From Oscillospiraceae bacterium (GTDB lineage: Bacteria > Bacillota > Clostridia > UMGS1810): a stretch of 64,000 bases of DNA. The translations under genes and the position numbers were made by a program. Under the pieces are notes generated by a model that saw only the letters and a list, made by a program, of their open reading frames with translations, was not told the DNA's origin and did no database searches. Positions within the stretch are counted from its first letter, which is position 1; every line of letters begins with the position of its first letter. Below, one piece after another: positions 1 to 27,189 of this stretch. The stretch covers positions 1 through 64,000 of the forward strand of contig SVJZ01000009.1 in NCBI GenBank assembly GCA_015068705.1, given 5' to 3'.

Positions 1-2
1 TT

Positions 3-319: not shown

Positions 320-2968
320 ATGAGCAAGAGGTTTTTAGCAGGATTGCTGATGCTGGTTATGGTACTGGGTACCATGTGCGTACCGGCATTTGCAGCAACG
401 GAGTACACCTTAAACACCGTGTTTGACATTGACAATTTTGAGGGTGCAACCAATGTAAGCGCGGAAAACAGTGCAGCGGGCGATACTACCATTGATATCA
501 ATGACGCCATCGCAAGTAACGCTTCTGACCGCAGAATCGTCTGGGGAGATGACTACTCCTGGGAGATTTCCAATGTGGGCAGTCAGGGTGCAACAAATGG
601 CTGGCACAAGGCTTATCTTGATGGCTATCTGTTGATTAAAGGCTCTAATGTAGATTACGGCGTGCTTAAGCTCAACCACAATGCATCTGCACGCATGAAC
701 CTCAAAACCATTACCGCAACCGGACGTTCTGCAAATATGCATACCGAGGTTGTGCGCTTTGCCATCAGCGCAGATGAATTGAGCTATTATGAGTTTGGTT
801 ATGTAGGCAACTATTTTGACGGCAGCAACAGCACAGTACCTGAAGGTTTGCAGAAAAACCGTCCCTTTATCGCTCGCGTGGATAATGGTGTTCGTACCGT
901 GATTGCGGCAGATACCAGCAGCGAAAGCAGTGATTGGGTGAAGTGGAAGGATAGCCAGTATAGTATCTCCATCAGCGGCGATACCATTACCTATAAGGCT
1001 TATCAGACTACTCAATGGACAACCGGTGAGGAAAACAAGACCAGTGCGATTTTCTCCGGTAGCTTTACCGATACCGATTTGCTGGATGATTTTGCATATC
1101 CGATGGGTCTTTGTGCAATGGCAGATGGTAACAACACTGCACAGTATCTGAATGCAGGCATTACCTTTACCAAAGACAAAGAGCCTGTACAGACTCCGCA
1201 GGTATTTAGCACTACTTTTAATTATGCAGATTACACCTATCCTACCACAACAAATATGACCGCAGAGGGTATCGGCAACGGATTTAATGCTGAAACCAAC
1301 AAAAATGATTTGCGTGTGGCTTGGGGTGATAACTACGCTTGGCACTTTACCGATGGTTACAGCACTTTAGGCTATCCCTCTCAAGACTATGTGGGCTTCA
1401 ATAGCGGAGGACGTCTGATTATGAAGGGCTCGAGTGCAGACCTGCTTGCACTTAACCTGGAGCATGATGATGCACCCTATATGAACCTGAAATCCGTCAA
1501 TGCGGTTGGACGTTTTGCAAACAGACACACCGAGATTGTCCGTGTGGCGTTGAGTGCAGATAAAAACAGTTATTATGAATTTGGTGTGGCGGGCGAGTAT
1601 TTTGACTCTAGCAGTACCATGCCCACCGGAATTACCAAGTACAGACCCTATGTGGCACGTGTGGTAAATGGCACTCGTACCGTACTTGCAGCAGCAAGTG
1701 GCAGTGAATATATCGATTATCCGAAGTGGAATGATAACCATTATGTAATCAGTATCAATGGCTCCGATATTAACTACACCATATTCCAGAGTGCACAGGG
1801 TGGTTCTACTGCAAATGAAAACACTACCTTTACCGGCACCATCAGTGACTCCGGATTCGGTTTGCTGAACACCTTTGCATATCCTGCTTCTTTGGGTGGT
1901 TATGTATCGTCCGGTGCAGAGGTACAGTACAATAGTTTCTCCATGTCCTACATCTACGGCGCAAAATCCAAGAGCTTTACCGAGGACTGGACTGCATTTA
2001 CTGAAGCAAGCGCAAAAACTGATAGCAACACCGACGGCAACTGCTTGAATTTCTTCAGTTCGGACAACAAACAGACAGTAGTTCCCGGCACCGAACTCAA
2101 TGTGGCATGGGCAGATGATTACACCTGGAAATTCCATGTAGACAGTACGCACGAGGCGGCTAGCAGTAAGATTTACATGCGTCCGAGTGATAACCCGCGC
2201 AGAACGGTTATCATCGGTGATGCAAAGGGTGGCGTTCTCACGCTGGTTCACAAGGACAACGGCTTTATGAACCTCGAAAACGTGGCTGTGGATTCCCTCT
2301 TCTCCAGAAGTGCAGGTCAGGGCATCCGTGTGGCTATCAACAGTGATGAAGATACCTACTATGAATTGGGAATGAACAACGATACACATCTTCCCTATGC
2401 AGCAGTTGTGGTAGATGGTGAAAAAACCATTCTTGCAACCGGCAGCACAGAATATACCGCTTGGGCACGTATTCACTATAGCTTCAGTGTGAATGGCAAT
2501 ACCATTACCTACAAGATGTATCAGACCGAGCAGAATGGCACTGCAGAAATTGCAAGCACCGAATTTACCGGCACCATCAATGATGGCACCTATAAGATTC
2601 TGGCAGGTACCGTATATCCCGTGGCACTGGTTGGCTACAACTCGGTAGAGGAATGCCAGTTTGAGGGCGTGTCTCTCGTTTATGGCACCGATATTGAGGT
2701 GATGGATGAAGGTACTTCCTACCGTGTAAGCGCAAATACCGCGGGCATGAATCTTTCCAACCCGACCATTACTCTGGTAATGGCAGCATATGTGGAAGAA
2801 GACGGCGTAGCTAAACTGGTAGATATCGATTATCAGGAGGGTGTGATTGGCAGCACTCCGGTAAGCTTTGACAAATCCTCCACCCCGGGTGTAACCTACA
2901 AAATCTTTGCACTGGACGGCGACATGGCAAATCTGTCTCCGGCTGCAAGTGCAAGAGTAGTTGAATAA
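320..2968 (+). CDS. Secreted protein with three internal repeats, function unknown
   Basis: 882 residues, preceded by AGGAGG at about 306. The N-terminus (MSKRFLAGLLMLVMVLGTMC...AFA) is a signal peptide, with likely cleavage after the AFA near residue 25. The rest holds three diverged copies of a module of about 260 residues. Each has a W-(G/A)-D-(D/N)-Y-(S/A/T)-W motif, an NLK/NLE strand followed by V-R-(F/V)-A-(I/L)-(S/N), a YYE-(F/L)-G motif and a closing (F/V)-(A)-YP segment. The modules look like beta-sandwich, possibly concanavalin/LamG-like domains. A different beta domain of about 85 residues closes the protein. No catalytic motif or cell-wall anchor is visible. The same module starts the next gene, so the two products may share a ligand. 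Inference: extracellular glycan-binding protein. Confidence 0.75.
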   Translation: MSKRFLAGLLMLVMVLGTMCVPAFAATEYTLNTVFDIDNFEGATNVSAENSAAGDTTIDINDAIASNASDRRIVWGDDYSWEISNVGSQGATNGWHKAYLDGYLLIKGSNVDYGVLKLNHNASARMNLKTITATGRSANMHTEVVRFAISADELSYYEFGYVGNYFDGSNSTVPEGLQKNRPFIARVDNGVRTVIAADTSSESSDWVKWKDSQYSISISGDTITYKAYQTTQWTTGEENKTSAIFSGSFTDTDLLDDFAYPMGLCAMADGNNTAQYLNAGITFTKDKEPVQTPQVFSTTFNYADYTYPTTTNMTAEGIGNGFNAETNKNDLRVAWGDNYAWHFTDGYSTLGYPSQDYVGFNSGGRLIMKGSSADLLALNLEHDDAPYMNLKSVNAVGRFANRHTEIVRVALSADKNSYYEFGVAGEYFDSSSTMPTGITKYRPYVARVVNGTRTVLAAASGSEYIDYPKWNDNHYVISINGSDINYTIFQSAQGGSTANENTTFTGTISDSGFGLLNTFAYPASLGGYVSSGAEVQYNSFSMSYIYGAKSKSFTEDWTAFTEASAKTDSNTDGNCLNFFSSDNKQTVVPGTELNVAWADDYTWKFHVDSTHEAASSKIYMRPSDNPRRTVIIGDAKGGVLTLVHKDNGFMNLENVAVDSLFSRSAGQGIRVAINSDEDTYYELGMNNDTHLPYAAVVVDGEKTILATGSTEYTAWARIHYSFSVNGNTITYKMYQTEQNGTAEIASTEFTGTINDGTYKILAGTVYPVALVGYNSVEECQFEGVSLVYGTDIEVMDEGTSYRVSANTAGMNLSNPTITLVMAAYVEEDGVAKLVDIDYQEGVIGSTPVSFDKSSTPGVTYKIFALDGDMANLSPAASARVVE

Positions 2969-2989
2969 GTTCATTACATTTCTTTCCTT

Positions 2990-3035
2990 TATATATGTGT
3001 GGTGCGCCCTTTCGTAGGGCGCATCGCATATATAA
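2990..3035 (+). other. Strong intergenic hairpin
   Basis: A long stem surrounds GTGCGCCCT (3002-3010) and AGGGCGCAT (3016-3024), extended by AT-rich flanks (TATATG and CATATA). It lies between two large secreted-protein genes and is not followed by a T-run. It may protect or process the mRNA, or partly attenuate it, which would let the upstream protein be made in excess. Confidence 0.5.
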
Positions 3036-3086
3036 TAATTCGCAGCAACCATTGTATCAACCTATAGAAAGGTATGGGTATTTCAT

Positions 3087-5897
3087 ATGAAAAAACGACT
3101 GATTAGCTTATTATTGGCAACACTTCTGGCAGTGAGCGGTTTATCCGCTTTTGCCGAAACTGCAGTAATCCGCGAAAGCGGCGGCGATTTTAATCCTGCA
3201 ACCGGCAAGGAAGGCACGGTTTCCAGCGGCAACACCACGGCGATTGGGTTTTCGGAGGAAACTGCAAACCGCGTGGTCTGGACGAGTGATTATGCCTGGG
3301 AAACCTCCAAAAAGTTTACCGATGGCGGCGGCGCAAGTGTGCAGATTATTGCCTACAATACCGGACGCCAGTGGAACAGATTAAACCTGGCTGCGCCCGG
3401 CAAAGCCGAAGCAGCAATCAATCTTAAGGTGGCAGATCCCACATTAGATGAGTATACCGAAATCACCCTGCGTGATGTTCGCTCGGATTCCTCCAACTCG
3501 GGTGTTCGCGTGGCAGTGAATGCCGACGAGGACACATTTTTGGAATTTGCGCTGGCGGCAAATGGCGTCAGCGATACCTTCGGCACTTATGCCGAGGCAC
3601 CTTATGTTACCAAATCAATCGATGGCGTACGCACCCAGATTTTTGCCGATGCTGAGGCATGGACGGGCAAGAGTGGTGCATCTAACATCAACTGGAAGCC
3701 GCATACCTGGATCATCCGTATTCTGGGCGATTCTGTGACATTTACCATCAAATTATCCAGCGGCTCACAGAATGACGACAATGTTTACACTGAAAGCTTC
3801 AGCTTTGTGGATAAGGACGTTTCCAGAATCATCAAGGAGAGCGCTTACCCGCTTTCGCTGTTTGTAAATAAAACTGCCCGTGCACAATTCCATTGGGCAA
3901 CCTATAAAACCGGTCCCGCCTACACCTCTGCCATTGCAGAGCCGGCAAACGTGATGTATGCAACGCTGACCCCAGAGGCAGTAGAGGGTCAGACCGGCGT
4001 ATATGACCTGGGCGGCAGCCATGCAATCCGCCGTACCGTTTCCACCGCAGGCGCAGAAACCGTAATCGGTCTGTCGGAGGATGGCGAAACCTTTACCAAC
4101 TACACCGTTGCAAATGGTGAGGCACTAAATACCACCGATGGCAAAAAATATTCTTATGTAAAATTCCCCGAGGGCGTGAGTGCGGACGACATTACCCTGC
4201 TTACCGATGCATCCTATGAAAATCAGATGGAGATTGCACAGCTCAACACTCTCAACCTGAAGGCGCGCTTAAACGGAGCGATAGCATCTGATGCAACCTG
4301 GAGTAGCAGCGCACCGTCTGTTGCCACGGTTGAAAATGGCGTGGTAAAGGGCTTGATGGGCGGTAATGTTACCATCACCGCAAAAAATGCCGCAGGCATT
4401 ATGGTAAGCACCAAAATCCGCGTGGTGGACGAGCTTACCGCAGCGGTAGAGGGCGACTATGTTGCCGAGTTCCTTGCAAGCAAGGCGCCGATTATGGCAA
4501 ACCTCAACACCCTTATTGCAAATGATGACACCGCAGGATTGCGCGCATTCCTGCTGGAGGATGGCGAAACCAATCTGTCCGCTTTCCCCTCCATCGACCG
4601 TTCGGCAGTGGAAACCTTTGCCGATGAGGATGCCGAGGGCTTTACCCGTTACCTCGACAAACTGGCTACCTATGAGCCGTTTACCCTGACCTCTTTGGAG
4701 GATATGGAAGCATTCCAGAGTGAATTGGTTGACATCATCAAGCTTTGCGGTCTGGACAACATCGCCGATGCAGATGACCTGGAGCAGGCGATTGCGGTCG
4801 ATAATGATTATTTTGAAATTGACCTGGAAAATGAGTATTACCTCGCCGAGCGCGAAGGCGTGCTGGGTGCGCTGACCAACTCGGTATTTGACAACAAAAA
4901 AGACCTGCAAACCCGTTTTGTGGAGCAGTATGTGATGCGAAACATCGCAAATGCAGAGTCGTATAGCTATGTGGGAGAGGTACTTTCCAACAATGCAGAA
5001 CTCATTGGCTATGATACCGACAAGGTGAATGGTCTTAAGAGTGTGACCAAGCTCTATCAGGCAATCTTTGCCGACAAGGCGGATATTGCCGATATGGAGG
5101 CGCTGTGCGATTATATCGACGATTACAGAGAAACCACACCCACCAAAAAGCCGAGCTATTCGTCCGGCGGTGGCGGTGGCGGTGGTTCCGGATTTTCGTC
5201 CACCATCGTGCTTGATCCCGTGGTGCCGGTAGAGCCGGAAACCCCTTCGGAAACAGAGGAATATCCCATTCCGATGGTAGAGAAAAACCACCTGTTCCCC
5301 GATGTACCGATGGATCACTGGGCATATGAGCCGGTAAGATATCTGACCGGTATCGGCGCAGTGAGCACCGAGAGCGAGGACGGCACATTCCGTCAGGGTG
5401 ACCCGGTTACCCGTGCGGAGTTTGTGAAAATGCTCCTGTTGGGCATGAAGATGGAGAATGAAGAAAGCATTGCAGCTCTTGCGGCTGCAGACGGTGCGCC
5501 CTCGTTTGACGATGTGGCAGGCGCCGAGTGGTACTACAATTATGTAACTGCAGCGGCATCTCTCGGCATTGTGTCGGGTGGCGGCGACGGTACCTTCCGT
5601 CCGGATGCACCCATCAGCCGTGAGGAAATGTGTCTGATGCTGACTCGTACCCTGGATAAGCTGGGTCTGGCGGCAGCATACATTGACAATCCGCCTGATT
5701 TTGCTGACCGCGATACCATCAGTGAATGGGCATTCCCGTCGGTTATCAAGTTGTCGCTCATGGGAATTGTAAATGGTGATACCGATGCACAGTTCCGTCC
5801 GCAGGACACCGCAACCCGTGCAGAGGTTGCGAAGGTGATTTACAAATCCTTCTATATGATTCCGGTGGAGGCAACTGCGGAGGTTGCCAATGAATAA
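3087..5897 (+). CDS. SLH-anchored surface protein with Ig-like domain
   Basis: 936 residues with signal peptide MKKRLISLLLATLLAVSGLS (cleavage likely after AFA, residue 24). Residues about 30-270 hold one copy of the module repeated in the previous gene (VVWTSDYAWE motif). Residues about 389-450 read as a bacterial Ig-like (BIG_2) domain (SAPSVATVENGVVKG, then VTITAKNAAG). Residues 460-690 look helical. A poly-Gly linker near 690-700 leads to three SLH domains starting near residues 735, 804 and 868 (FPDVPMDHWAYEPV, FDDVAGAEWYYNYV, FADRDTISEWAFPS). SLH triplets bind secondary cell-wall polymer, so the product should sit in the S-layer facing outward (family knowledge). No catalytic site is visible. 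The stop codon overlaps the start of the next gene, showing translational coupling. Confidence 0.8.
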   Translation: MKKRLISLLLATLLAVSGLSAFAETAVIRESGGDFNPATGKEGTVSSGNTTAIGFSEETANRVVWTSDYAWETSKKFTDGGGASVQIIAYNTGRQWNRLNLAAPGKAEAAINLKVADPTLDEYTEITLRDVRSDSSNSGVRVAVNADEDTFLEFALAANGVSDTFGTYAEAPYVTKSIDGVRTQIFADAEAWTGKSGASNINWKPHTWIIRILGDSVTFTIKLSSGSQNDDNVYTESFSFVDKDVSRIIKESAYPLSLFVNKTARAQFHWATYKTGPAYTSAIAEPANVMYATLTPEAVEGQTGVYDLGGSHAIRRTVSTAGAETVIGLSEDGETFTNYTVANGEALNTTDGKKYSYVKFPEGVSADDITLLTDASYENQMEIAQLNTLNLKARLNGAIASDATWSSSAPSVATVENGVVKGLMGGNVTITAKNAAGIMVSTKIRVVDELTAAVEGDYVAEFLASKAPIMANLNTLIANDDTAGLRAFLLEDGETNLSAFPSIDRSAVETFADEDAEGFTRYLDKLATYEPFTLTSLEDMEAFQSELVDIIKLCGLDNIADADDLEQAIAVDNDYFEIDLENEYYLAEREGVLGALTNSVFDNKKDLQTRFVEQYVMRNIANAESYSYVGEVLSNNAELIGYDTDKVNGLKSVTKLYQAIFADKADIADMEALCDYIDDYRETTPTKKPSYSSGGGGGGGSGFSSTIVLDPVVPVEPETPSETEEYPIPMVEKNHLFPDVPMDHWAYEPVRYLTGIGAVSTESEDGTFRQGDPVTRAEFVKMLLLGMKMENEESIAALAAADGAPSFDDVAGAEWYYNYVTAAASLGIVSGGGDGTFRPDAPISREEMCLMLTRTLDKLGLAAAYIDNPPDFADRDTISEWAFPSVIKLSLMGIVNGDTDAQFRPQDTATRAEVAKVIYKSFYMIPVEATAEVANE

Positions 5898-8133
5898 GAT
5901 GAAGAAATTACTCGCACTGGTTACTGCCGTTGCCCTGATGGGTGCGGCGGTGCCGGTGGGGGCAGAGGAAGAGTGGCAGGCTAAGGGTATCTGGGAAGAA
6001 AAACGTGTGTTTGAAGAAGCTCCTGCACCTACCATTCATCTGGATGCCACCATCAAAGTAAATGAAAATACCATTCAACATGCAGTGGAAAAACGCGTGT
6101 TGAGTATGCAAACAGAGCTTTCTGACCATAATGCGGCGGCATTTATGGATCTGGAAACCCATCAGATTAAACCCGAATTCAAGGAATTTGCCGAGGAATT
6201 GTACGATTATCCGGTATTTCGTTGGGGCGGCACCAGTGCAGAGGATAAAAACCTTGCAAATAACTTTGGATTGTTCAAAGACCGCAAGCCGACGGTGCAT
6301 CAGTTTACCGGTGCACCCGGTGCACAACCCCAGCATTTTGGTCTGGCGGAGTATCTGGGATGGATGTATTCCATCAACCCGAATGCAGAGATTATTCCCT
6401 GCCTTTCCATGACCTGCAACACCCCCGAGGACAGTGCGCACATTGCACAGTTTCTCTGTGACGAGGCAGACGAGTCGGAGTGGGGTGCAATGCGTGCACA
6501 GGCAGGTTATCCCGAGCCGGTCAAGGTATTTGCCTTTGAGATGGGCAACGAGGTGGACATCCACACCGGTCTTACCAACGAAAAAACCAATGCATACTGG
6601 CCCGAGTGGAATAACGAGGAAGAGTATGCAGAGTTTGGCGAATGGTATTCAGATGTGGCGCTCAAGCACTGCGAAGCAATCCGTGCGGTGGTGCCGGATG
6701 CAAAGTTTATCATTCTTGGAAAATCCGGTAATGAACGTAGCGGCATGACCGATTCCATGATGCGTGTGATTATCGACAGAATGCGAGATTATGTGAATTA
6801 TATCTCCCAGCACCGCTATTATGACGGTGTGGCGCTTTCTCACAATCTGGACCACAACAGACAGATTTTAGAGATTTGTGAGGAAGTATTGGGACCCGAC
6901 CATGGGATAAAAATTGCCGTAACCGAGCATGCGCGCTGGTTTTCTTCGGGTCCTTACTACAACCATGTAAGACCCATTGCACTGGGCGGCGCACTGTCGG
7001 TTGGCAAGTTTTTAAGCCGCAGTATTGAGGATGGCTACACGGCAGTTGCCAACTACCATGGTATTCAGGGTCACAATAACACCGGCTGGGCATCCTATTT
7101 TGCCACCGAGGAATTTGGCTATGCCAATGGTGTGATTGGACACATGTATAAATTCTTCGGAGCAGGTCTTGGTGACCGCGTGGTGGAATACAGCTTGGAA
7201 AGCGAACACGAGATTACCGACAAAACCAGTACGCAACAGAGATTTTCCGCGTTGGTAACTGCTACCGGCGACAAAGAACTGGATATCATCCTCATCAATG
7301 AAAAGGATGACCACGATTTTAATCTTACCTTTGAATTTGCAAATAATTACACACTGGTGGAGGAAGATATCTTCACCGCACCCAACCTGGATTCGTTTAT
7401 CACGGTGGAGTGTAATGGTGTAAACCCCTTGCAAATTACCCACAATCAGAAAAACGAGGCGAATTTCTCCTCTTATCACATGCCTGCAAAGAGCATTGTT
7501 CATCTGAAACTTCGGGGAAACAAGAGCATTCCCGGTCTTTCGAACGGAAAGGGCGGAGAAACGGTGGAAGAGTATGACGCAGCGTTTGCTGATATTACCT
7601 ATCACTGGGCAAAGAATCAGATTTCGGCACTGGCAGAGATGGGTCTGGTACAGGGCAACGAGGAGGGACTCTTCCTTCCCGAGGATGGCATCACCCGTGC
7701 TGAGTTTGCAGCAATGCTTACCCGCACGCTGGAACTGCCCACCGATTACCCCAATGCATACTTTGATGATGTATCTTCTGATGCGTGGTATGCAAAAGAA
7801 GTCAATGCAGTGTTCTGCAGTGGCCTGATGAAGGGCAAAGCGGCACGCACCTTTGACCCCGAGGCGCCCATTACCCTCGAAGAGGTGGTTGCAACGGTGG
7901 CGCGTACCCAACGCAGCAGGGGAGAGGCAATGCAAATTGATACCGATGCGGTGGTTGCCTCCATCGCCGATGCCAATGCCATTTCGCCCTGGGCGAGAAA
8001 TGATGTGGCGTATGCGGTTGGAACAGGCATGATGCGCAGAGTGAATTTTGGCGGCTGGAGTGCCGCAGCGCAATCTGCATCCCGTGCGCAGACCGCTGTG
8101 CTGATTTATGCAATGCACGGATTGCTCAACTAA
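5890..8133 (+). CDS. SLH-anchored glycoside hydrolase, clan GH-A-like (paralogue 1)
   Basis: 747 residues from ATG 5890, which overlaps the previous stop by 8 bases and has GGAGG upstream; a TTG two codons earlier is less likely. It has a signal peptide (MNKMKKLLALVTAVALMGAA). The catalytic region has the two signatures of a retaining TIM-barrel glycosidase: FEMGNEVDI with Glu221 as candidate acid/base, and AVTEHARW with Glu346 as candidate nucleophile. RWGGT and HRYYDG are further barrel strands. A beta-sandwich tail follows. Three SLH domains start near residues 563, 623 and 690. GNE plus a late Glu resembles GH39, GH51, GH79 and GH30, but no family assignment is safe. It is closely related to the next gene, so two surface enzymes probably act on related linkages of the same glycan. 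Confidence 0.75.
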   Translation: MNKMKKLLALVTAVALMGAAVPVGAEEEWQAKGIWEEKRVFEEAPAPTIHLDATIKVNENTIQHAVEKRVLSMQTELSDHNAAAFMDLETHQIKPEFKEFAEELYDYPVFRWGGTSAEDKNLANNFGLFKDRKPTVHQFTGAPGAQPQHFGLAEYLGWMYSINPNAEIIPCLSMTCNTPEDSAHIAQFLCDEADESEWGAMRAQAGYPEPVKVFAFEMGNEVDIHTGLTNEKTNAYWPEWNNEEEYAEFGEWYSDVALKHCEAIRAVVPDAKFIILGKSGNERSGMTDSMMRVIIDRMRDYVNYISQHRYYDGVALSHNLDHNRQILEICEEVLGPDHGIKIAVTEHARWFSSGPYYNHVRPIALGGALSVGKFLSRSIEDGYTAVANYHGIQGHNNTGWASYFATEEFGYANGVIGHMYKFFGAGLGDRVVEYSLESEHEITDKTSTQQRFSALVTATGDKELDIILINEKDDHDFNLTFEFANNYTLVEEDIFTAPNLDSFITVECNGVNPLQITHNQKNEANFSSYHMPAKSIVHLKLRGNKSIPGLSNGKGGETVEEYDAAFADITYHWAKNQISALAEMGLVQGNEEGLFLPEDGITRAEFAAMLTRTLELPTDYPNAYFDDVSSDAWYAKEVNAVFCSGLMKGKAARTFDPEAPITLEEVVATVARTQRSRGEAMQIDTDAVVASIADANAISPWARNDVAYAVGTGMMRRVNFGGWSAAAQSASRAQTAVLIYAMHGLLN

Positions 8134-8167
8134 TGGCAGTTGGTGCATTACAACAGGAGGTTATCCA

Positions 8168-10405: not shown

Positions 10406-10424
10406 TATCGATGGAGGAACGAAG

Positions 10425-15907: not shown

Positions 15908-15919
15908 GGAGGCAGAGAA

Positions 15920-17038
15920 ATGAGAAAAATGAAAATGATAGTATCTTTGGTGCTCGTTCTGCTGATTCTGTTTGGTATGAGCGCGCAGGCAGTGCCCTTC
16001 AACCTATGGGAATACGGTACATTGCTTGCCATTCCCGCCACCATGGATGGTGGTCCAAAAGGAAATCCTTATTATTTATACAGAAACTATTTCAAAACCG
16101 AGCTGAGCGACGAAGAGGCACATGCAGGTGAGCTTTCGTTTAAGGTTTACCCGTGGGTGTACTTAAAAGAAGGAGTGGGGGATGCGCAGGAACTCTTTAT
16201 GCAAAACCTCTATTCGCCCCAGAATGCGCACAGAACGAATTCCATTCTATATGAATGTTTTATCAAGGGGGCAGATACGAATGGTACCCTTCACGCTTCT
16301 ATGATTATCAAAGCCAATCTTTATAAGGAAAATGGCGACGACAAGACGCTTGTTGCAGCTTATTCAGCACAGACCGAACCGGCAGAAAATGGTTGGGTAC
16401 GGGCATATACTTTGATTCCTGCTAGAAATGATTATGATTTTGTCATATTTTCAGTTGGATATTTTGGTTCCAAGGACCCTGAGCGTGAGGTGGGCGAATT
16501 TTATATCGATGATATCGCCGCATGGCTGGTTCCTGCAAAGATAAAAATCGACAATGTGGTCGCAGAGGGAAGGCTACTGGATTTACACAAACTGGTTGTC
16601 ACCGGTATGGATTCCAAAGAAGAGAAAAAAGAAGTCCGCGCCAAGGATAACATCAAATTCCGTGTGGTTTCGGGCGATGCGAAGATTGAGGATGGACGTT
16701 ATCTCAGGTACAATAGCAGCCGCAGTGGTCAGGTGACCTGCGAGGCGAATTTGTTTGGCATTACCACCACCTTCACTGTTGATTTCAAGGGAAGTGTTTC
16801 GGTTGGTGAGGTAACCAATTCGGGCGGTGTGTATCAGGTGTCTGCCACCAATAATGGCAGCACTGCGGCACAGGTGCAGTTGGTTACCTGCCTGTATGAC
16901 GGAACCCGTCTCTCGGCGATTGATATTGCCGTAAAAGAGGTTGCCGCAGGCGAGAGCGAAACAGTGCGTTCCAAGGATATGACCGCACCCTTTTATGTGG
17001 TAAATCCGGTAATCCAAACATATGTTCTGACAAAATAG
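15920..17038 (+). CDS. Secreted carbohydrate-binding-like companion protein (copy 1)
   Basis: 372 residues, signal peptide MRKMKMIVSLVLVLLILFGM, start 12 bases after the glycosidase stop with AAGGAGG upstream. Residues about 25-195 look like a jelly-roll carbohydrate-binding domain of CBM4/9 type: an opening LWEYGT strand, ELSFKVYPW, and a closing EFYIDDIAAW strand. Residues 200-290 form an Ig-like domain. The last 80 residues form a small beta domain (VSVGEVTNSGGVYQV to LTK) that is common at the ends of clostridial secreted proteins. No enzyme motif is seen. Being paired with the glycosidase in both copies of the duplication suggests that the two proteins act together, for example by holding substrate (inference). 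Confidence 0.6.
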   Translation: MRKMKMIVSLVLVLLILFGMSAQAVPFNLWEYGTLLAIPATMDGGPKGNPYYLYRNYFKTELSDEEAHAGELSFKVYPWVYLKEGVGDAQELFMQNLYSPQNAHRTNSILYECFIKGADTNGTLHASMIIKANLYKENGDDKTLVAAYSAQTEPAENGWVRAYTLIPARNDYDFVIFSVGYFGSKDPEREVGEFYIDDIAAWLVPAKIKIDNVVAEGRLLDLHKLVVTGMDSKEEKKEVRAKDNIKFRVVSGDAKIEDGRYLRYNSSRSGQVTCEANLFGITTTFTVDFKGSVSVGEVTNSGGVYQVSATNNGSTAAQVQLVTCLYDGTRLSAIDIAVKEVAAGESETVRSKDMTAPFYVVNPVIQTYVLTK

Positions 17039-17051
17039 AGAAGAGGGGCAA

Positions 17052-17112
17052 ATGAGCTATATCATAGCGCATCCCGCGCGATGCTCATTTATAACGGGAT
17101 GGAGGAAGCAGA
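17052..17112 (+). pseudogene. Duplication junction scar: phosphoesterase start fused to SLH-gene end
   Basis: ATGAGCTATATCAT (17052-17065) matches the start of the phosphoesterase gene at 20832-20845 with one base change. From 17067 the next 46 bases match the last 46 bases of the SLH gene (13279-13324), with six changes, and run into the second glycosidase start. The scar therefore joins the right edge of the duplicated unit to its left edge, as expected of a direct tandem duplication. Confidence 0.85.
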
Positions 17113-19686
17113 ATGAGAGCACTAACAAAAACAATTTGCGCCGCATTGACTCTTGCGTTGGCAATGCAGATATTGCCGGCAGGAGCTGCAAATGATATCA
17201 AAAATGCTACCGTGAGGGTGAATACCACCCTCACGGTGGATGAGGACACCGTAATCAAGCAGGCGGATAAACGCCTGCTTGGCTTCAATAATGATTCCAA
17301 CTGGGCGTATGAGGGACTTTTGGGCAAAGGGACGGCTTACCATGATGATGAATGGGTGGATGCCTACCATGATTATGGCATGAAAGCGCCCTTGGTGCGT
17401 GGATTTTTTCACAATCTGGACTGGATGGACACGGTGGGTAACAACCGCGCTGCTCTCGTGGGCGGTGGCTTGTATTCTTACGGCATGCCCGAGTGGATCA
17501 AATCGGTTTTGAAAATTACCCCCGATGCACAGTTTTCTATCTGTATCAATGTAGAAGATAGTGTATTTGACCTGCAAAATCTGGTGCGCTATTTGCTCCT
17601 TATGCCCGACGACCCGCGTGCAGTGGATGCCAATGGTGTCAACTGGGCGCAGGTGCGTGTGGATGACGGTCTGGTAGACCCTGTCCCGATTGCCTGCCTG
17701 GAGCTTGGCAACGAAACCGACCATCAATTGTGTAACGCAAAGGGTGGTTGGGATAATCTGACCGAGCAGGAGGTTGCCGATTGTGCGCAGCAATATGTTG
17801 ATTGGTGCAATCCTATCATCGACGGCATCCGTCTGGTGAGTACCGATGTGAAACTTGCCGCACTGGTTAACAGTGGCGGAAGCATAGAGGAGACCAAGAG
17901 CGTTTACTGGGATGAAAAAATTATCAATGAGCTTGGTGCCAAGGTAGATCTGATCGTATTGCACTACTATCAATGGCATGGCAATGACAATACCACCAAT
18001 GCAAATCAGGGTCTCAAGCTGGATGAATACCGCATCAATTATGTAATGAATCTGATGGCGGTTTTGCCCGAGGAAAGCAGACCCAAGCTATATATGTCCG
18101 AGCATGCCTGCTTGGTAAATGATTATGCAAAAGATCCGGATACCGGGCTTATGCTGGGGCAGGTTACTTCCCTCAAAGGCACCATTACCACTGCGGAAGT
18201 GATTATTCGCATGGCAAATAGCCCTGCGATGGCATTTGCCAGCTATCATTCCCTGTCCGATTCACTTAAAAATCGTCTGGATTTTGGTGGCAAATCCTGG
18301 GGCGCAATGCGTCGTTACAGTCAGCAGGGGGATGTACAACTTACGGTGGTGGGCGAATTTTTCCGAATGGCATACGATGTGTTCGGCGACCATGTGGTAA
18401 AGAGCACCTTTACCGAACCGCAGCCGCATCATTATGCGGTTCCGTCATACAACAACGGAAACTCCAATCAGATTATTACTGCAACGGCGCATACCACTAC
18501 TGATGGCGGAATGCGGTTGCTCTTTTCCAACCAGAATCCCAATGTAGGACACAACATCACCTTTGTGTCGGACGGGGAGTACAAGCTGGAAAAAGAGGTT
18601 ATCTTAACCGACGACAATCTGTATGTGGACAACAATATGCTCACTCCAGATGCGTATTATGTTACCACAAATGTGGTAAATTCTCAGAGCAAATTCCAAA
18701 GCTACTATGTGCCGCCGCAGAGCGTAGTTGCACTGTATCTGGCGCCCATGGATGCAGTATATACCGAGCCAGACCGTCCGCTTGAGGTCGTGCTGCGGGA
18801 TGACAACGGCACTGCCGTTACCTGTACCAATGGTGTGTTCTTTGCAGAGATTGAAGCACTGGAAGGACGCGCGTTTGAAAAATCGCAGGGGCTGATGCTT
18901 TCGGTGATCAATGCCGAAGGGGAAATTGTTGCCCTTGACTGGAAGGATTTGCTCCGTCAGCGTACATCCTTTTCCTGTGTATTGCCCGAAAGCGGAAATT
19001 ATACTCTGCGCATTTCGGACGGCACCACAACCTACGAGAAGAGTTTTAATGCACAGGTGGTAAAATCCAAGCGCGCGCATGTGAGCTTGATTTCCATAGA
19101 CGGTTGCGACAACAACACCTATCAGGTGGATTACACGGTACATTTTGGCGTGGATGCACGGCTAGGAAATACCTATTCGGTCAGCATTGAGGATATGGAC
19201 GGCGGCGTACACTATTACACCGCAGGGAAAAAAGGAGCAACCGATACGGTACAGGGCGAGGCACATATGCCAACCTGGGTACCGGGCGGCAGATATAAAC
19301 TGGTAGTTGCGTTTGGCGATTACCGCTATGAAAAGGAATTTTCCTTCCTCAAGGCGAGCGAACTGGTGCGCGTAAGTGCTGCACCCGTTAAGGGAAATGG
19401 TGATGTCTACACCCTGAATGATTATAAGACGGGCGAGGATATGACGGTATCCCTTACTAATATCAGCGATACACCGCAGACCTTTATGCTGTACGCTTCG
19501 GCATATGGAACGCAGGGCGACATGATTGGTGCAAGTGCCTCCAATACAACTGTTACCCTTGCAGTGGGTGAAACCAAGCAGGTGCCACTCACGGTCAATT
19601 CCACCGTAAATGCGCCCGTGCTGATTAAGTTCTTCACGTGGGATGGCAGTATGTCACCGCTCAACGATGTATACTTTACCAAATAA
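17113..19686 (+). CDS. Secreted multidomain glycoside hydrolase, clan GH-A-like (copy 2)
   Basis: 857 residues, signal peptide MRALTKTICAALTLALAMQI. It matches the copy at 13325 along its whole length. Candidate acid/base Glu201 (CLELGNETDH) and candidate nucleophile Glu330 (LYMSEHACL) are kept at identical positions. The two copies differ most in residues about 205-310 (for example DLQLFAPRGG against DHQLCNAKGG, and ILHWYHG against VLHYYQW), the region between the catalytic strands that would line the substrate cleft. The C-terminal Ig-like modules are nearly identical. This suggests the copies have diverged in substrate subsites while keeping the same chemistry (inference). No SLH anchor is present. 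Confidence 0.75.
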   Translation: MRALTKTICAALTLALAMQILPAGAANDIKNATVRVNTTLTVDEDTVIKQADKRLLGFNNDSNWAYEGLLGKGTAYHDDEWVDAYHDYGMKAPLVRGFFHNLDWMDTVGNNRAALVGGGLYSYGMPEWIKSVLKITPDAQFSICINVEDSVFDLQNLVRYLLLMPDDPRAVDANGVNWAQVRVDDGLVDPVPIACLELGNETDHQLCNAKGGWDNLTEQEVADCAQQYVDWCNPIIDGIRLVSTDVKLAALVNSGGSIEETKSVYWDEKIINELGAKVDLIVLHYYQWHGNDNTTNANQGLKLDEYRINYVMNLMAVLPEESRPKLYMSEHACLVNDYAKDPDTGLMLGQVTSLKGTITTAEVIIRMANSPAMAFASYHSLSDSLKNRLDFGGKSWGAMRRYSQQGDVQLTVVGEFFRMAYDVFGDHVVKSTFTEPQPHHYAVPSYNNGNSNQIITATAHTTTDGGMRLLFSNQNPNVGHNITFVSDGEYKLEKEVILTDDNLYVDNNMLTPDAYYVTTNVVNSQSKFQSYYVPPQSVVALYLAPMDAVYTEPDRPLEVVLRDDNGTAVTCTNGVFFAEIEALEGRAFEKSQGLMLSVINAEGEIVALDWKDLLRQRTSFSCVLPESGNYTLRISDGTTTYEKSFNAQVVKSKRAHVSLISIDGCDNNTYQVDYTVHFGVDARLGNTYSVSIEDMDGGVHYYTAGKKGATDTVQGEAHMPTWVPGGRYKLVVAFGDYRYEKEFSFLKASELVRVSAAPVKGNGDVYTLNDYKTGEDMTVSLTNISDTPQTFMLYASAYGTQGDMIGASASNTTVTLAVGETKQVPLTVNSTVNAPVLIKFFTWDGSMSPLNDVYFTK

Positions 19687-19698
19687 GGAGGCAGAGAA

Positions 19699-20817
19699 AT
19701 GAGAAGAATGAAAACAATATTGTCTTTGGTGTTCGCTCTGCTACTCCTGTTTGGCATGAGCGCGCAGGCAGTGCCACTTACCCTATGGGAATACGGTACA
19801 ATGCTGGCAAGTCCAGCCTCTATGGATGGTGGCAGATACGGGAATCCATATTATCTGTATCGCAACTCTTTCAAAACTGAATTAAGTGATGAGGAGGCGC
19901 ATGGTGGCAATCTTTCGTTTAAGGTTTACCCGTGGGTGTACCTGAATGAAGGTGTGGGTGATGCGCAGGAACTCTATATGCAAAACCTCTATCCGCCCCA
20001 GGGTGTACACAAAACCAACCAGATTGCGTATGAATGCTTCCTCAAGGGGGCAGATACGAATGGTACCCTTCACGATTCTATGATTATCAAAGCCAATCTT
20101 TATAAGGAAAATGGCGACGATAAGACGCTTGTTACAGCTTATTCAGCCCAGACCGAGTCGGTAGAAAACGGTTGGGTGCGGGCATATGCCGTGATTCCAC
20201 CTGAATTGGATTATGATTATATCCTGTTTTCGGTAGGATATTTCGGCTCGCGGGATGCCAATCGCGAGGTGGGCGAATTTTATATCGATGATATCGCCGC
20301 ATGGCTGATTCCTGCAAAGATAAAAATCGACAACGTGACTGCAGAGGATACCCTGTTGGATTTGCACAAACTTGTTGTTACCGGTATGGATTCCCAAGGT
20401 GAGAAAAAAGAAGTCCGCGCCAAGGATAACATCAGATTCCGTGTGGTTTCGGGCGATGCTCAACTGGAAAATGGTCGCTATCTGATACATGGCAATAGCC
20501 GCAGTGAGCAGATTGTCTGCGAGGCGAATTTGTTTGGTATTACCACCACCTTCACTGTTGATTTCAAGGGAAGTGTTTCGGTTGGTGAGGTAACCAATTC
20601 GGGCGGTGTGTATCAGGTGTCTGCCACCAATAATGGCGACAGCGCGGCGCAGGTGCAGTTGGTTACCTGTCTATATGACGGGTCCCGTCTCTCGGCAATT
20701 GATATTGCCGTAAAGGAGCTTGCCGTAGGCGAGAGCGCAACAGTGCGCTCCAAGGATATGACGGCTCCCTTTTATGTGAAAAATCCGGTTATTCAAACAT
20801 ATGTTCTGACAAAATAA
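19699..20817 (+). CDS. Secreted carbohydrate-binding-like companion protein (copy 2)
   Basis: 372 residues, the same length as its copy at 15920, with signal peptide MRRMKTILSLVFALLLLFGM and AAGGAGG 12 bases after the glycosidase stop. The domain order is unchanged: jelly-roll (to EFYIDDIAAWL), Ig-like, then a small C-terminal beta domain whose sequence is almost identical to copy 1. Changes cluster in the jelly-roll between residues 25 and 100 and near residue 160. No catalytic residues can be recognised. The exact gene pairing is conserved after duplication, which argues for joint function with the adjacent glycosidase. Confidence 0.6.
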   Translation: MRRMKTILSLVFALLLLFGMSAQAVPLTLWEYGTMLASPASMDGGRYGNPYYLYRNSFKTELSDEEAHGGNLSFKVYPWVYLNEGVGDAQELYMQNLYPPQGVHKTNQIAYECFLKGADTNGTLHDSMIIKANLYKENGDDKTLVTAYSAQTESVENGWVRAYAVIPPELDYDYILFSVGYFGSRDANREVGEFYIDDIAAWLIPAKIKIDNVTAEDTLLDLHKLVVTGMDSQGEKKEVRAKDNIRFRVVSGDAQLENGRYLIHGNSRSEQIVCEANLFGITTTFTVDFKGSVSVGEVTNSGGVYQVSATNNGDSAAQVQLVTCLYDGSRLSAIDIAVKELAVGESATVRSKDMTAPFYVKNPVIQTYVLTK

Positions 20818-20831
20818 AGGAGATGAGCAAG

Positions 20832-21944
20832 ATGGGCTATATCATGGGTGACAGTGCAGTTTATCTGGCGGATAATGCCTACTATATCATGTTTCACACC
20901 TATGCACCGGGCATTGGCTGGGTGCGTATCGGCGACAAGGATTACCATGACCATGTGTGTGGTATGGTGCGCTCGGAAGATACGGTACATAAAATCAAGG
21001 TGCCTGCCCATGTACTGGACGAGGTAGGTGCATATACCATCAATTTCCGAAAGATTATCGACCGTTGCCCCTATTTCCCCAAGAGCGAGGAAGAGGTTGA
21101 GTCGAGGGATTACACCTTCCGTAGCCCCAAAGGCAGGGAAAAGACCAACCTCTACCTGCTTGGTGATGTGCACGACAGACACCAGCCGGGCGTTGATGTG
21201 GGCAGTTATTTTGGGGATGATCTGGACATTCTGGTGCTACTGGGCGATACCTCCGAAAATGGTACCCGTGATGGTGCAATGGATGCCCAACGCATTGCGG
21301 CAGACATTACCCGTGGCGAAGTAGCAACCTTGTATGTACACGGTAACCACGAGGCACGCGGAAGATTTTCTACCGAACTGCGCCATTATGTGGGAGTGGG
21401 AGATGTATTCCACTACACATTCCACACCGATAATATCTATGGCATCGTGCTCGATGCCGGCGAGGATAAGTTTGACCAATCGCGCGAATACGGCGGGCTG
21501 GCAGTATTTGACGAGTATCGCCGGGAGCAGATTGCATTTCTGGATGAGGTAATTGCCAAGGGCGAGTACAAAAATTACGAGCATGTGCTGGTGTTTTTAC
21601 ATATTCCGCTCATTCAGAAACGAAACGAACCCATGAAGGACATCTATTATGAATGGATTAAACGCCTCAATCACATTGCCCCTGAGGTGATGCTCTGTGC
21701 ACATGAGCATGTAGTGCAGTTTATCGAACCGGGCAGTGATTTCTTTGGCATGAAGCAGGAGTACCCGGTTGTTGCCGTTTCGGTGCATGAGGGCGAGTGG
21801 GTGGACGATATGCGTTGCCGCCTGCTTGACCTTGCCGGCATGGCAATGACAGTTACCAAGGATAAGCTGGATTTTGTGGTAACTGATATGGAGCATAAAG
21901 AACGGGAACGCTACAGCATTGATTTAACCGGGAGGAACCCATAA
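20832..21944 (+). CDS. Calcineurin-like metallophosphoesterase, cytoplasmic
   Basis: 370 residues from ATG 20832. The in-frame ATG at 20823 directly abuts the AAGGAG motif, whereas 20832 lies 9 bases from it. The metallophosphoesterase motifs appear in order: GDVHD near residue 115, LGDTSENGT, HGNHEARG, a single His in FLHIPL and a CAHEHV variant of the final GHxH. These residues bind two metal ions and cleave phosphate mono- or diesters (family knowledge). The first 100 residues are a separate beta-rich domain. There is no signal peptide, so it works inside the cell, unlike the preceding gene products. Its stop overlaps the start of the alpha-galactosidase, so it belongs to the glycan operon. 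It may act on a phosphorylated substituent of the imported glycan; substrate unknown. Confidence 0.8.
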   Translation: MGYIMGDSAVYLADNAYYIMFHTYAPGIGWVRIGDKDYHDHVCGMVRSEDTVHKIKVPAHVLDEVGAYTINFRKIIDRCPYFPKSEEEVESRDYTFRSPKGREKTNLYLLGDVHDRHQPGVDVGSYFGDDLDILVLLGDTSENGTRDGAMDAQRIAADITRGEVATLYVHGNHEARGRFSTELRHYVGVGDVFHYTFHTDNIYGIVLDAGEDKFDQSREYGGLAVFDEYRREQIAFLDEVIAKGEYKNYEHVLVFLHIPLIQKRNEPMKDIYYEWIKRLNHIAPEVMLCAHEHVVQFIEPGSDFFGMKQEYPVVAVSVHEGEWVDDMRCRLLDLAGMAMTVTKDKLDFVVTDMEHKERERYSIDLTGRNP

Positions 21945-24097
21945 TGGCAATTCAAGTACAAGGAACTCAGTTTCACTTAAAGGGTAAACATGTCAGCTAT
22001 ATTTTTTCTCTTTACAAAGAACGCTTTTTAACCCACATTTACTGGGGAAAACGCTTTGAATCCGATTGTGATTTGTCTTATTTTCCGGATGAATTTATCT
22101 ATTCCCGTGCAAATGCCGTACATGTGCGTCTGGATGAAACCAACCATATGTTTATGAGTGATTTGCAGTTGGAATTTTCGGTGTTTGGCGGCGGTGACTA
22201 CCGCCTGCCCACCTTCCATGCGCGGTATGCAGATGGCTCCACTGTGAGTGAATTTACCTATGAGGGCTACCGCATTATGGATGGAAAACCCCAATTAAAA
22301 GGGCTTCCCTCCACCTATGACGAGGGAGATGCGCAGACGCTGGAAATCACCTTCCGCGATTCGCGTACCGGTATCAGGGCGGTTTTACTTTACACCATTT
22401 TTGAGGAGTATGATGTAATTACCCGTAGCATCCGTTACGAAAACTGCGGCACCGAGCGTGCGGATATTCTCTCTGCACAATCAACCACGGTGGATTTTTA
22501 CGGGCAGGATTATAAAATGCTTACCCTGGAGGGAGATTGGCTGCGGGAACGCAGTATGGAATGGCGTAAGGTGGGGCACAACACCATGACGGTGGAATCA
22601 CGCCGTGGTATGAGCAGCCATATGTGCAACCCGTTTATTGCCCTTGCCGAAACAAACGCCACCGAAAATGGCGGCGATGTGTACGGCTTTTCGCTGGTTT
22701 ACAGCGGTAATTTTGCCGCATCCGCCGAGGGTAACTCGTGCGGCGGTACCCGTGTTACCATGGGTATCAATCCATTTAATTTTGAATATCCGTTATCTCC
22801 GGGGGAGCAGTTCCAGACCCCCGAGGTGGTGATGGTGTATTCGGATACCGGCTTAAATGGCATGAGTAATCGCTATCACCGTATTTACCGCGAGCGGCTT
22901 TGCAAAGGGATTTATCGGGATGCCGAACGCCCCATGCTCATCAACAACTGGGAGGGCACCGGCACCCATTTTACCAAGGAAAAACTTGCCGAGATTGCCA
23001 GGGGTGGCAAAGCACTGGGACTGGAACTTTTTGTGCTTGACGATGGTTGGTTTGGCAAGCGAAATATTGCCGGCTCGCTGGGTGATTGGTATGTTAACCG
23101 CGACCTTCTGCCCGACGGGCTGGAGGGAATTGCAAATGAAACCAAGGCACTGGATATGAAATTCGGTTTGTGGATTGAGCCGGAAATGATTTCGCCCGAG
23201 AGCGAACTTTACCGCGCACATCCCGATTGGTGTATCCATGCCGAGGGTAGAAATCGTACCCTTTGCCGTGACCAGTTGGTGCTGGATCTGACCCGCGCCG
23301 AGGTACGCGATTATGTGGTGGATGTGATTTGCAAGGTCATCCGCAGTGCTGATATATCTTATATCAAATGGGATTGCAACCGAAACATCACCGAAACCGC
23401 GTCCATGCGCCAGACACACGACTTTGTGATGGGTCTGTATGATATTTTGGATCGCATCACCGGCGCATTCCCCGAAATTTTGTTTGAGGGTTGCAGTGGT
23501 GGTGGCGGAAGATTTGACCCCGGTATGTTGTATTATATGCCCCAGACATGGACGAGCGATGATACCAACCCCATCCGGCGCTTAAAAATTCAGCATGGCA
23601 CATCGGTGGTGTATCCGCCCGTTACCATGACGGCACATGTGGGCAAAATTGATGTGGGCAAAGAGGGATACAACCATTTCTTGAATACCTGTGCGATGGT
23701 TGCCATGGCGGGAAATTTCGGATATGAGATGGATTTGAGCCTGCTTTCGGAGGATGAGTTGGAGCAGGCGCGCGAATATGTGGAAATGTATCGGGAAATC
23801 CGTCCGACCGTTCAGTTTGGCGCATTTTACCGGATTGAAAGTCCCTTTGAGGGACGGTTTGTATCATGGGAGTTTGTAGACGATACCCGTGCAGTACTCT
23901 TTGTATACCAGACCGAAAAAGAATCCAATGGTGCCGAACGCAAGATTAAACTTTCCGGGCTTGATCCCAATGCAAACTACCGTTGCCGCGATAGGGTATA
24001 TTCGGGCGAAGCGCTCATGAAGGTGGGGCTTCGTGTTCCTCTTCAGCGGTATGAGTATTTTGCCGATTGCTATGTAATGGAAAAACTGGAGGGGTAA
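21944..24097 (+). CDS. Alpha-galactosidase, family GH36
   Basis: 717 residues, close to the usual length of about 720-740 for bacterial GH36 enzymes. It hydrolyses terminal alpha-1,6-galactose from oligosaccharides such as melibiose and raffinose, or from galactomannan fragments (family knowledge). Family signatures are present: LFVLDDGWFGKRN, GLWIEPEMISP, YIKWDCNR with nucleophile Asp477, and TWTSDDTNP with acid/base Asp539. No signal peptide is present, so it acts on imported oligosaccharides. The start codon overlaps the phosphoesterase stop by one base, and the esterase gene follows after 3 bases. Its presence suggests that the glycan handled by this locus carries alpha-galactosyl side groups (inference). 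Confidence 0.92.
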   Translation: MAIQVQGTQFHLKGKHVSYIFSLYKERFLTHIYWGKRFESDCDLSYFPDEFIYSRANAVHVRLDETNHMFMSDLQLEFSVFGGGDYRLPTFHARYADGSTVSEFTYEGYRIMDGKPQLKGLPSTYDEGDAQTLEITFRDSRTGIRAVLLYTIFEEYDVITRSIRYENCGTERADILSAQSTTVDFYGQDYKMLTLEGDWLRERSMEWRKVGHNTMTVESRRGMSSHMCNPFIALAETNATENGGDVYGFSLVYSGNFAASAEGNSCGGTRVTMGINPFNFEYPLSPGEQFQTPEVVMVYSDTGLNGMSNRYHRIYRERLCKGIYRDAERPMLINNWEGTGTHFTKEKLAEIARGGKALGLELFVLDDGWFGKRNIAGSLGDWYVNRDLLPDGLEGIANETKALDMKFGLWIEPEMISPESELYRAHPDWCIHAEGRNRTLCRDQLVLDLTRAEVRDYVVDVICKVIRSADISYIKWDCNRNITETASMRQTHDFVMGLYDILDRITGAFPEILFEGCSGGGGRFDPGMLYYMPQTWTSDDTNPIRRLKIQHGTSVVYPPVTMTAHVGKIDVGKEGYNHFLNTCAMVAMAGNFGYEMDLSLLSEDELEQAREYVEMYREIRPTVQFGAFYRIESPFEGRFVSWEFVDDTRAVLFVYQTEKESNGAERKIKLSGLDPNANYRCRDRVYSGEALMKVGLRVPLQRYEYFADCYVMEKLEG

Positions 24098-24100
24098 GAG

Positions 24101-24886
24101 ATGGAGATTACCACAACGCCCCTTTGGCAGGGGCAGGATAATGGGCTTAACATCACCTATTACCCACCGCAGGGAGAGGCGAGAAGCAGTGCGGTGATTG
24201 TATTTCCCGGCGGGGGATATCGTGTGATGGCAGAGCACGAGGCAAGACCGTATGGCGAATTTTTTGCCGGACACGGGTTTCACGCCTTTGTGGCGGACTA
24301 TCGCACCAACCCGAACCACTTTCCGTTACCGCTTGCAGATGCGCGCCGTGCAGTACGCTATGTGCGGCTCAATGCCGCGCGCTATGGTATCTCCCCCGAA
24401 AAAATTGCGGTAATTGGCTCGTCGGCGGGCGGTCACCTTGCGGCATTGCTTTCCACCTATCGGGAGAAAATCGACTTTGAAATGAACGGCGATGCGGCAG
24501 ATGAGCAGGATTATCTGCCCAACGCACAGATTTTGTGTTATCCCGTTATCCGGCTGACAGGGGAGATTGCCCATGTCGGTTCGGGTGAAAAGCTATTGGG
24601 TGAGGGCTGGCAGGAGAGGGGCGATGCACTTTCACCCGATGTGCTGGTGACACCCGATACGCCGCCTGCATTTATGTGGCACACGGCGGAGGACAGCTGT
24701 GTGGATGTGCGCAACAGCCTCACCTATGGTGCGGCACTCAAGGCAGCAGGTGTGCCGTTTGAGATGCACATTTATCCGGACGGCTTTCACGGTCTGGGCA
24801 TGTGTGCACGGGAGGAAACCTTCGCGGTGCACGATGCCGCGTGGAAGAATGCAGTAGTTTCCTGGCTGAATTATATCGGATTTTAA
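24101..24886 (+). CDS. Alpha/beta-hydrolase esterase, carbohydrate-esterase-like
   Basis: 261 residues, beginning 3 bases after the alpha-galactosidase stop. It has the features of small lipase/esterase-type hydrolases (BD-FAE and acetylxylan-esterase-like): FPGGGY oxyanion region, GSSAGG with catalytic Ser108, EDSCVDV as the acid position and DGFHGLG with the catalytic His. No signal peptide is present, so it acts in the cytoplasm. In this setting it probably removes acetyl or similar ester groups from imported oligosaccharides (inference from context). It is the last gene of the block, followed directly by a strong terminator. Confidence 0.82.
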   Translation: MEITTTPLWQGQDNGLNITYYPPQGEARSSAVIVFPGGGYRVMAEHEARPYGEFFAGHGFHAFVADYRTNPNHFPLPLADARRAVRYVRLNAARYGISPEKIAVIGSSAGGHLAALLSTYREKIDFEMNGDAADEQDYLPNAQILCYPVIRLTGEIAHVGSGEKLLGEGWQERGDALSPDVLVTPDTPPAFMWHTAEDSCVDVRNSLTYGAALKAAGVPFEMHIYPDGFHGLGMCAREETFAVHDAAWKNAVVSWLNYIGF

Positions 24887-24891
24887 AGAAA

Positions 24892-24921
24892 AAAGGCGTG
24901 TGCCATATGGCACACGCCTTT
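24892..24921. terminator. Bidirectional terminator between glycan block and two-component system
   Basis: Perfect 13-bp stem AAAGGCGTGTGCC / GGCACACGCCTTT with an ATAT loop, flanked by A-rich and T-rich bases. It ends both the plus-strand block and the minus-strand response-regulator gene that stops at 24932. Confidence 0.85.
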
Positions 24922-25618: not shown

Positions 25619-25631
25619 TTTAATCGGCTCC

Positions 25632-27092: not shown

Positions 27093-27189
27093 AAAAATTC
27101 ACCTGCCCGGTTGGGAATTTTACGCATCCGATGCAATGCGCTCGGTAAAATTATATCATAAAAAACAAGTCAGGGCAATCAAAGAAAAG

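Follow-up and report, generated by a model that had tools for sequence, protein, structure and literature searches.

GH51-like glycosidases and an SLH protein pair in a probable surface glycan-utilization locus of an Oscillospiraceae bacterium

Results and Discussion

The first 24,886 positions of a contig from an Oscillospiraceae bacterium (GenBank assembly GCA_015068705.1, contig SVJZ01000009.1) carry thirteen genes, g0 to g12, which we consider likely to be part of a Gram-positive glycan-utilization locus with GH51-like surface enzymes and with a pair of SLH-domain proteins, namely g5 (X) and a partner with C-terminal SLH domains, that would hold the glycan or the enzymes at the wall. The window we analyzed is the 64,000-nucleotide start of this contig (C2, 65,345 bp), the genome having 1.77 Mb in 36 contigs and being 93% complete. 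The four glycosidases g3, g4, g6 and g8 are one deep clade adjacent to the GH51 arabinofuranosidases and not a new fold. A first-pass annotation, made from the sequence alone, had described thirteen same-strand genes with overlaps or short gaps, and this holds with 12 complete genes and one cut permease, separated by -8 to +118 bp (Table 1).

The same annotation had listed four GH-A-like glycosidases (GH, glycoside hydrolase) and three SLH-anchored proteins. Both categories are present but not separate, as g3 and g4 belong to both, and Pfam finds SLH domains in four proteins, at the C-terminus of g2, g3 and g4 and at the N-terminus of g5. The glycosidases had been taken as unassigned enzymes; all four are homologous and can be aligned across the catalytic part, which rules out four unrelated new GH families and leaves a single one, with amino acid identities of 59% (g3/g4), 80% (g6/g8) and 21–24% between the pairs. 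Pfam gives SLH as the sole match above cut-off in g3 and g4 and none in g6 and g8, and the NCBIfam model ArfA (GH51) reaches 52 bits with g4, below its cut-off of 625. We compiled an alignment of 13 members, including g3, g4, g6, g8 and relatives from the genomes G003, Ct408_bin46, G482, G528 and G693. Two glutamic acids are invariant in 13 of 13 sequences, that of the motif xGxE (acid/base) and that of [TSD]E[HWF] (nucleophile), which by alignment correspond to the E in MGNE and the E in TEHA of g4 and to E174 and E293 of the GH51 reference A6.

Searched against the PDB, the 13-member profile matched GH51 entries over the full length (7.7e-41), with GH79 or GH44-type entries coming next at about 4e-6, and hhalign with GH51 from Clostridia gave 99.9% (E 1.9e-32) at about 18% identity. 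The AF2 model of the g4 catalytic part reached a pLDDT of 88.5 and a pTM of 0.91, its input alignment including 17 GH51 sequences that could bias it toward GH51, and in a Foldseek search of the PDB its best 46 matches were all GH51 (E 1.8e-27, TM up to 0.74), followed by GH79. Judged by this model the clade shares the GH51 fold, and a GH51-type retaining mechanism is probable from the aligned catalytic residues. Superposition on GH39, GH51, GH79 and GH30 had been proposed as a check; it is GH51 that is nearest, GH79 being second by both profile and fold and far behind, and GH39 and GH30 being absent among the matches listed from the PDB profile and Foldseek searches.

Like the GH51 arabinofuranosidases 3ug3, 1pz3 and 2c7f, the enzymes would consist of a (beta/alpha)8 barrel and a C-terminal beta domain with a retaining Glu pair; in contrast to these they are secreted and partly SLH-anchored. 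In the tree one branch splits the 13 members from 16 GH51 sequences, all of them from Clostridia, with other GH51 subfamilies outside the sample (support 100/100, stem of 1.94 substitutions per site), and the clade itself divides into type I (g3 and g4, mostly SLH-anchored) and type II (g6 and g8). Among the residues that canonical GH51 keeps invariant, including the sugar-site set (R68, N73, H243, Y245 and Q350 in A6 numbering), the Arg, the Asn-Glu, the His, the Tyr and the nucleophile are retained, the Arg and the Tyr in all members, the His in 12 of 13 and the Asn of the Asn-Glu with one exception. N73, the Asn after PGG, is replaced in most members and Q350, the Gln of the last strand, is not kept, while a His and a Trp specific to the clade are conserved there, and the sugar specificity may thus differ from that of GH51. 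Since the model cut-off, the tree position and the sugar-site set all failed to place the clade inside GH51, we do not claim membership. The earlier suggestion of a new or poorly described GH group is fair as to 'poorly described', because the clade is deep and separate, missed by Pfam and below the NCBIfam cut-offs; its affinity is no longer unclear, with GH51 nearest by profile and fold.

As g0 is truncated by the contig end, we used the partner permease from a relative as a query against the genome and obtained a match near the end of contig C33 (10,935 bp). The last 147 bases of C33 are 98.7% identical to positions 1–149 of the window, with one 2-base gap, as expected for overlapping contigs of one assembly, and C33 and the window contig would accordingly be adjoining parts of one locus. 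Toward the window C33 encodes an AraC regulator, a ROK kinase, a SIS (GmhA-like) isomerase, a solute-binding protein (SBP) and two permeases, the region L180 5020-10934 holding AraC, ROK, SIS, SBP, a permease and the 5' part of g0. The ABC sugar permease g0 is a truncated gene that, going by the overlap, continues on C33, and it shows 68% identity to permease r9 of G003. A GH2 glycosidase without clear subfamily and an amino-acid carrier are also found on C33, divergent to the AraC-led genes. Gram-positive polysaccharide utilization loci (gpPULs) are defined by a contiguous regulator, transporter and polysaccharide-degrading enzyme, and this layout is seen here, with AraC, SBP and two permeases joined to g1–g12. 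Together with the recurrence described below, these genes bear out the earlier proposal of breakdown at the surface, import and completion in the cytosol.

We searched 399 genomes of the phylum and 391 of the class with profiles. Beyond the clade, the profile finds canonical GH51 in the phylum set, and close members of the clade occur within the class in G003, G482, G527, G528 and G693. Contigs of the metagenome-assembled genome Ct408_bin46 carry the clade as well; a match in Paenibacillus paeoniae covers the SLH part only. The neighbourhood survey in Clostridia that had been suggested earlier found the cassette in G003, Ct408_bin46 and G482. G003, from the same family and another genus, encodes an SBP, a g1-like protein, a type I enzyme with SLH, a g5 orthologue (29%), a second type I enzyme, a g2 orthologue (31%), two permeases and an SBP, and then a sensor kinase, Gfo/Idh oxidoreductases, an epimerase, a glycyl-radical enzyme, a phosphoesterase and GH65. 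Ct408_bin46 shows the arrangements g2-GH and repeat protein-GH-g2-like, and G482, from another family, has permeases, a g1-like protein, a type II enzyme, a g7-like protein, a g2-like protein, a type I enzyme with SLH, a g5-like protein and GH42. Going by gene content, the surface part of the cassette is conserved and the cytosolic part variable. The non-SLH part of g2 is common only to proteins of the same cassette in G003, Ct408_bin46 and G482, and homologues of g7 adjoin type II enzymes in G482 and G527. As a separate observation, the G003 region L019:746-7208, with oxidoreductases of the Gfo/Idh type, a protein resembling sugar isomerases and a glycyl-radical enzyme, may encode an unusual sugar pathway.

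The protein X (g5) has no Pfam or NCBIfam match except SLH. A search with g5 gave matches in 16 of 16 genomes of the host's family with up to 47 per genome, some of them resting on the SLH part, and an SLH-stripped profile found X in 76 of 245 Clostridia genomes from about 20 families. A same-strand gene with C-terminal SLH lies directly 5' of X, often with overlapping ends, in 31 of 60 cases and in about 20 of 23 in the host's family, compared to C-terminal SLH in about 26 of the 712 other genes of the examined loci; these proportions come mostly from the best match per genome and are not genome-wide rates. In the window, G003 and G482 the gene directly 5' of X is a type I glycosidase, and the g2-type gene is found elsewhere in the cluster. 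Genes in the neighbourhood of paired X encode, among others, ABC permeases, heparinase II/III, GH43, GH36, GH2, GH20, PL8, GH106, GH78, GH88 and GDSL esterases. The coupling is not an absolute rule, as this is ruled out by solitary X (n = 25), whose sampled neighbours are mreB, RNase Y, heptaprenyl synthase and alike.

In a quick tree of X, which has long branches, 20 solitary members form one short-branched group (SH-aLRT 94), and the paired or solitary state changes 4 times, compared to 19.6 times in shuffles. With a support of 99, the X proteins of three cassettes (window, G003 and G482) group together despite originating from two families; on this tree X of this cassette clusters by cassette and not by species. 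The X family appears as a slow-evolving solitary form on the housekeeping side plus divergent forms that are mostly paired inside glycan loci. Solitary slow-evolving X at L123:6889-9489 and in L135-L150 resemble one envelope protein per genome. A 215-aa X-like open reading frame (ORF) at L111:6006-6653 with the N-terminal SLH part only, beside a 540-aa gene, is perhaps a truncated X. Among the 79 genes neighbouring X pairs (L108:1-3705 and other loci), 10 have Cu_amine_oxidN1 domains; F5/8 type C and heparinase II/III-like domains occur there as well, and some of the proteins are very large.

We infer that X and its C-terminal-SLH partner, here g2 or g4, act together as a pair for glycan capture at the surface. 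The pair could also be an S-layer or envelope structure serving surface variation or adhesion, its proximity to glycan genes then reflecting envelope biology and not capture. The wide distribution and slow evolution of solitary X beside mreB and alike, as for a structural surface protein, and a high copy number reminiscent of surface-protein repertoires agree with such a role, which we nevertheless regard as rather unlikely, as paired X adjoin polysaccharide lyases, glycosidases and sugar transporters, solitary X do not, and the X subtype tracks the enzyme cassette across families.

The same tracking matters for a more conventional explanation of the whole locus, an ordinary SLH-anchored pectin/arabinan or arabinogalactan system with divergent GH51 arabinofuranosidases and with g2 and g5 as inert anchors that have no shared role. 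Inert anchors need not follow the cassette, and the replaced arabinose-site Asn and last-strand Gln also fit poorly with plain arabinofuranosidases. This explanation can still call upon GH51 arabinofuranosidases as the nearest relatives in sequence and fold, upon the precedent of Paenibacillus sp. JDR-2 (PMC4765114), where SLH-anchored glycosidases are known to go together with ABC import, and upon GH36 in this locus and GH42 in that of G482, which fit a galactose-containing polymer, and we see it as possible at less than even weight.

Several observations weigh against a glycan-utilization locus with a capture pair. Three of the 23 sampled X in the host's family are without the upstream SLH partner, and all three are in the window's own genome (L115, L120 and the solitary L123). 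The model of g5 is weak (pLDDT 69.7, pTM 0.49), and its fold search gave no functional match beyond SLH, only poor OB-like or propeller matches. Internal promoters could fit into the gaps of 76 and 118 bp, and the cytosolic enzyme varies with the version of the cassette (GH36 here, GH42 in G482, GH65 in G003), so that the substrate is not fixed by it.

This variation also leaves the alpha-galactosyl- and ester-bearing glycan of the first-pass annotation as no more than possible. The GH51 kinship plus GH36/GH42 would point most readily to a branched plant polymer that contains arabinose or galactose, such as rhamnogalacturonan I (RG-I) or arabinogalactan, galactomannan being the weaker option. 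With an acetylated galacto(gluco)mannan-like target, GH36, the esterase and the GH2 of C33 would serve the backbone and the GH51-like enzymes would have a changed specificity. GH36 and a BD-FAE-type esterase do lie within the operon and the divergent GH2 adjoins AraC on C33, but the cluster genes gave no match to GH26, GH5, GH113 or GH130, the GH2 has no clear subfamily and other versions have GH42 or GH65, making such a target improbable.

The two companions described as CBM-like (carbohydrate-binding module), g7 and g9, are present, yet g6–g9 are one tandem duplication and not two independent sets. The g6-g7 stretch (from about 13,279) and the g8-g9 stretch (from about 17,067) share 82.9% DNA identity over 3785 bp, the second copy opening with the last ~50 bp of g5, and g7 and g9 are 83% identical at the amino acid level. 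With dN/dS ratios of 0.20 (g6/g8), 0.23 (g7/g9) and 0.18 (g3/g4, at a dS of 1.79 that is near saturation), all three pairs are under purifying selection. Keeping both type I and type II looks selected, because both recur together in G482. The three repeats of the secreted protein g1 are real, with a fourth copy at the N-terminus of g2 and no other copies found in the genome; neither the g1 repeats nor g7/g9 matched PDB profiles. Besides SLH (8.9e-34) Pfam finds Big_2 in g2 (3.6e-5). Clear families had been claimed for the last three genes, which stands for GH36 and the esterase (g12 also matches PaeX at 2.9e-44, under the model cut-off). It does not stand for g10, which had no match in Pfam, NCBIfam or PDB searches and is named phosphoesterase because of the metallophosphatase motifs GDVH, LGD, GNHE, HIP and AHEH only.

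Using the likeliest start codons, the gaps from g0 to g12 are 76, 118, -8, 34, 19, -4, 12, 74, 12, 5, -1 and 3 bp, which suggests co-transcription. A 26-bp overlap of g3 and g4 is an effect of the ORF caller, the ATG of g4 being preceded by AGGAGG. Signal-peptide-like N-termini, read by eye, are found on g1–g9 and not on g10–g12. With a GC content of 48–51%, against 45–48% beyond it, the locus shows no sign of a foreign island. A histidine kinase and a polysaccharide deacetylase on the minus strand (24932-28122) follow directly past the end hairpin, and the whole genome (G000, 1.77 Mb) has 84 SLH domain matches.

Table 1: Features of the locus (window coordinates unless a contig is named).
Feature	Position	Strand	Description
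g0	1..243	+	MalG-type ABC sugar permease, last 80 aa, truncated at contig start
g0 remainder	contig C33 (L180:10185-10934)		Assigned by 149-bp contig overlap, 98.7%
g1	320..2968	+	Secreted protein, three ~250-aa repeats, no known family
g2 (Y)	3087..5897	+	One g1-type repeat, Big_2, helical region, 3 C-terminal SLH
g3	5890..8133	+	Type I GH51-like glycosidase with C-terminal SLH
g4	8168..10405	+	Type I GH51-like glycosidase with C-terminal SLH
g5 (X)	10425..13328	+	Two N-terminal SLH, then ~750-aa beta-rich region
g6	13325..15907	+	Type II GH51-like secreted glycosidase without SLH
g7	15920..17038	+	Secreted companion, beta-sandwich/Ig-like by appearance, no known family
g5 3'-end copy (and first g6 codons)	17067..17118	+	Before and into g8; 52-bp alignment; tandem-duplication footprint
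g8	17113..19686	+	Tandem copy of g6
g9	19699..20817	+	Tandem copy of g7
g10	20823..21944	+	Cytosolic protein, metallophosphoesterase motifs
g11	21944..24097	+	Cytosolic GH36 alpha-galactosidase (PF02065, 5.3e-136)
g12	24101..24886	+	Cytosolic alpha/beta-hydrolase carbohydrate esterase (BD-FAE, 6e-26)
Strong hairpin, 13-bp stem	24892..24921	.	Directly 3' of g12, closes gene cluster

For the preferred reading, a glycan-utilization locus with GH51-like surface enzymes, we propose that AraC senses the substrate and would induce the locus. As non-catalytic binding proteins, g1, g7 and g9 would help the SLH proteins to hold the glycan, with g5 and its neighbouring C-terminal-SLH proteins (g2, and g4 directly upstream) as the form that a recurring two-gene module takes in this cassette, likely to hold its glycan or enzymes at the wall. 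The anchored g3 and g4 would cut the glycan at the wall and the free g6 and g8 in the surroundings, followed by import of the products via the ABC transporter and completion in the cytosol by GH36, the esterase, the phosphoesterase, the ROK kinase and the SIS isomerase.

An SLH-anchored glycosidase combined with an ABC transporter is an established strategy in Paenibacillus sp. JDR-2, which has 77 SLH proteins, 29 of them carbohydrate-related (PMC4765114). Wall-anchored secreted glycosidases, a nearby ABC transporter and regulator and a cytosolic final hydrolysis are common to both systems, but in JDR-2 the enzyme itself carries the SLH and CBM, whereas the locus described here adds a separate SLH gene pair and uses another enzyme family. 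In a cockroach-gut preprint an Oscillospiraceae group is reported to transcribe SLH domains above glycoside hydrolases (PMC12871809), in line with the many SLH proteins in such genomes. The gpPULs of gut Firmicutes likewise combine regulator, ABC transporter and secreted as well as cytosolic glycosidases in one cluster; the expanded SLH pair, the GH51-like clade and the non-enzymatic repeat protein g1 set the locus described here apart. With SusC/SusD of Bacteroidota PULs the resemblance is in pattern only, namely a recurring, diverging pair that marks glycan loci in many copies and whose subtype tracks the cassette; the pair described here is SLH-anchored, has no TonB channel and goes with ABC import. 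Homology is not indicated, as SLH and Big_2 are the only Pfam matches above cut-off in g2 and g5 and no such fold match was found for g5.

Conclusion

More tentatively, at somewhat less than even confidence, we suggest that a group of Clostridia families uses the pair as a general module for glycan capture, specific to each cassette. It would be a Gram-positive functional counterpart of SusCD that arose from a single-copy envelope protein, combined here with a GH51-derived clade of changed specificity. In the open-access literature, which excludes most subscription papers, searches led to general work on SLH, pectin, PULs and termites and to no paper describing X or its pairing. The holding of glycans at the surface of Gram-positive gut bacteria is far less known than the Sus systems of Bacteroidota. 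X, as a large family without database model that has one housekeeping form and many forms bound to loci, offers a handle for detecting glycan loci in uncultured Clostridia and for sorting them, and the GH51-like clade represents enzymes overlooked by present annotation. If the pair is indeed such a general module, the set of X pairs in each genome would report its glycan repertoire.

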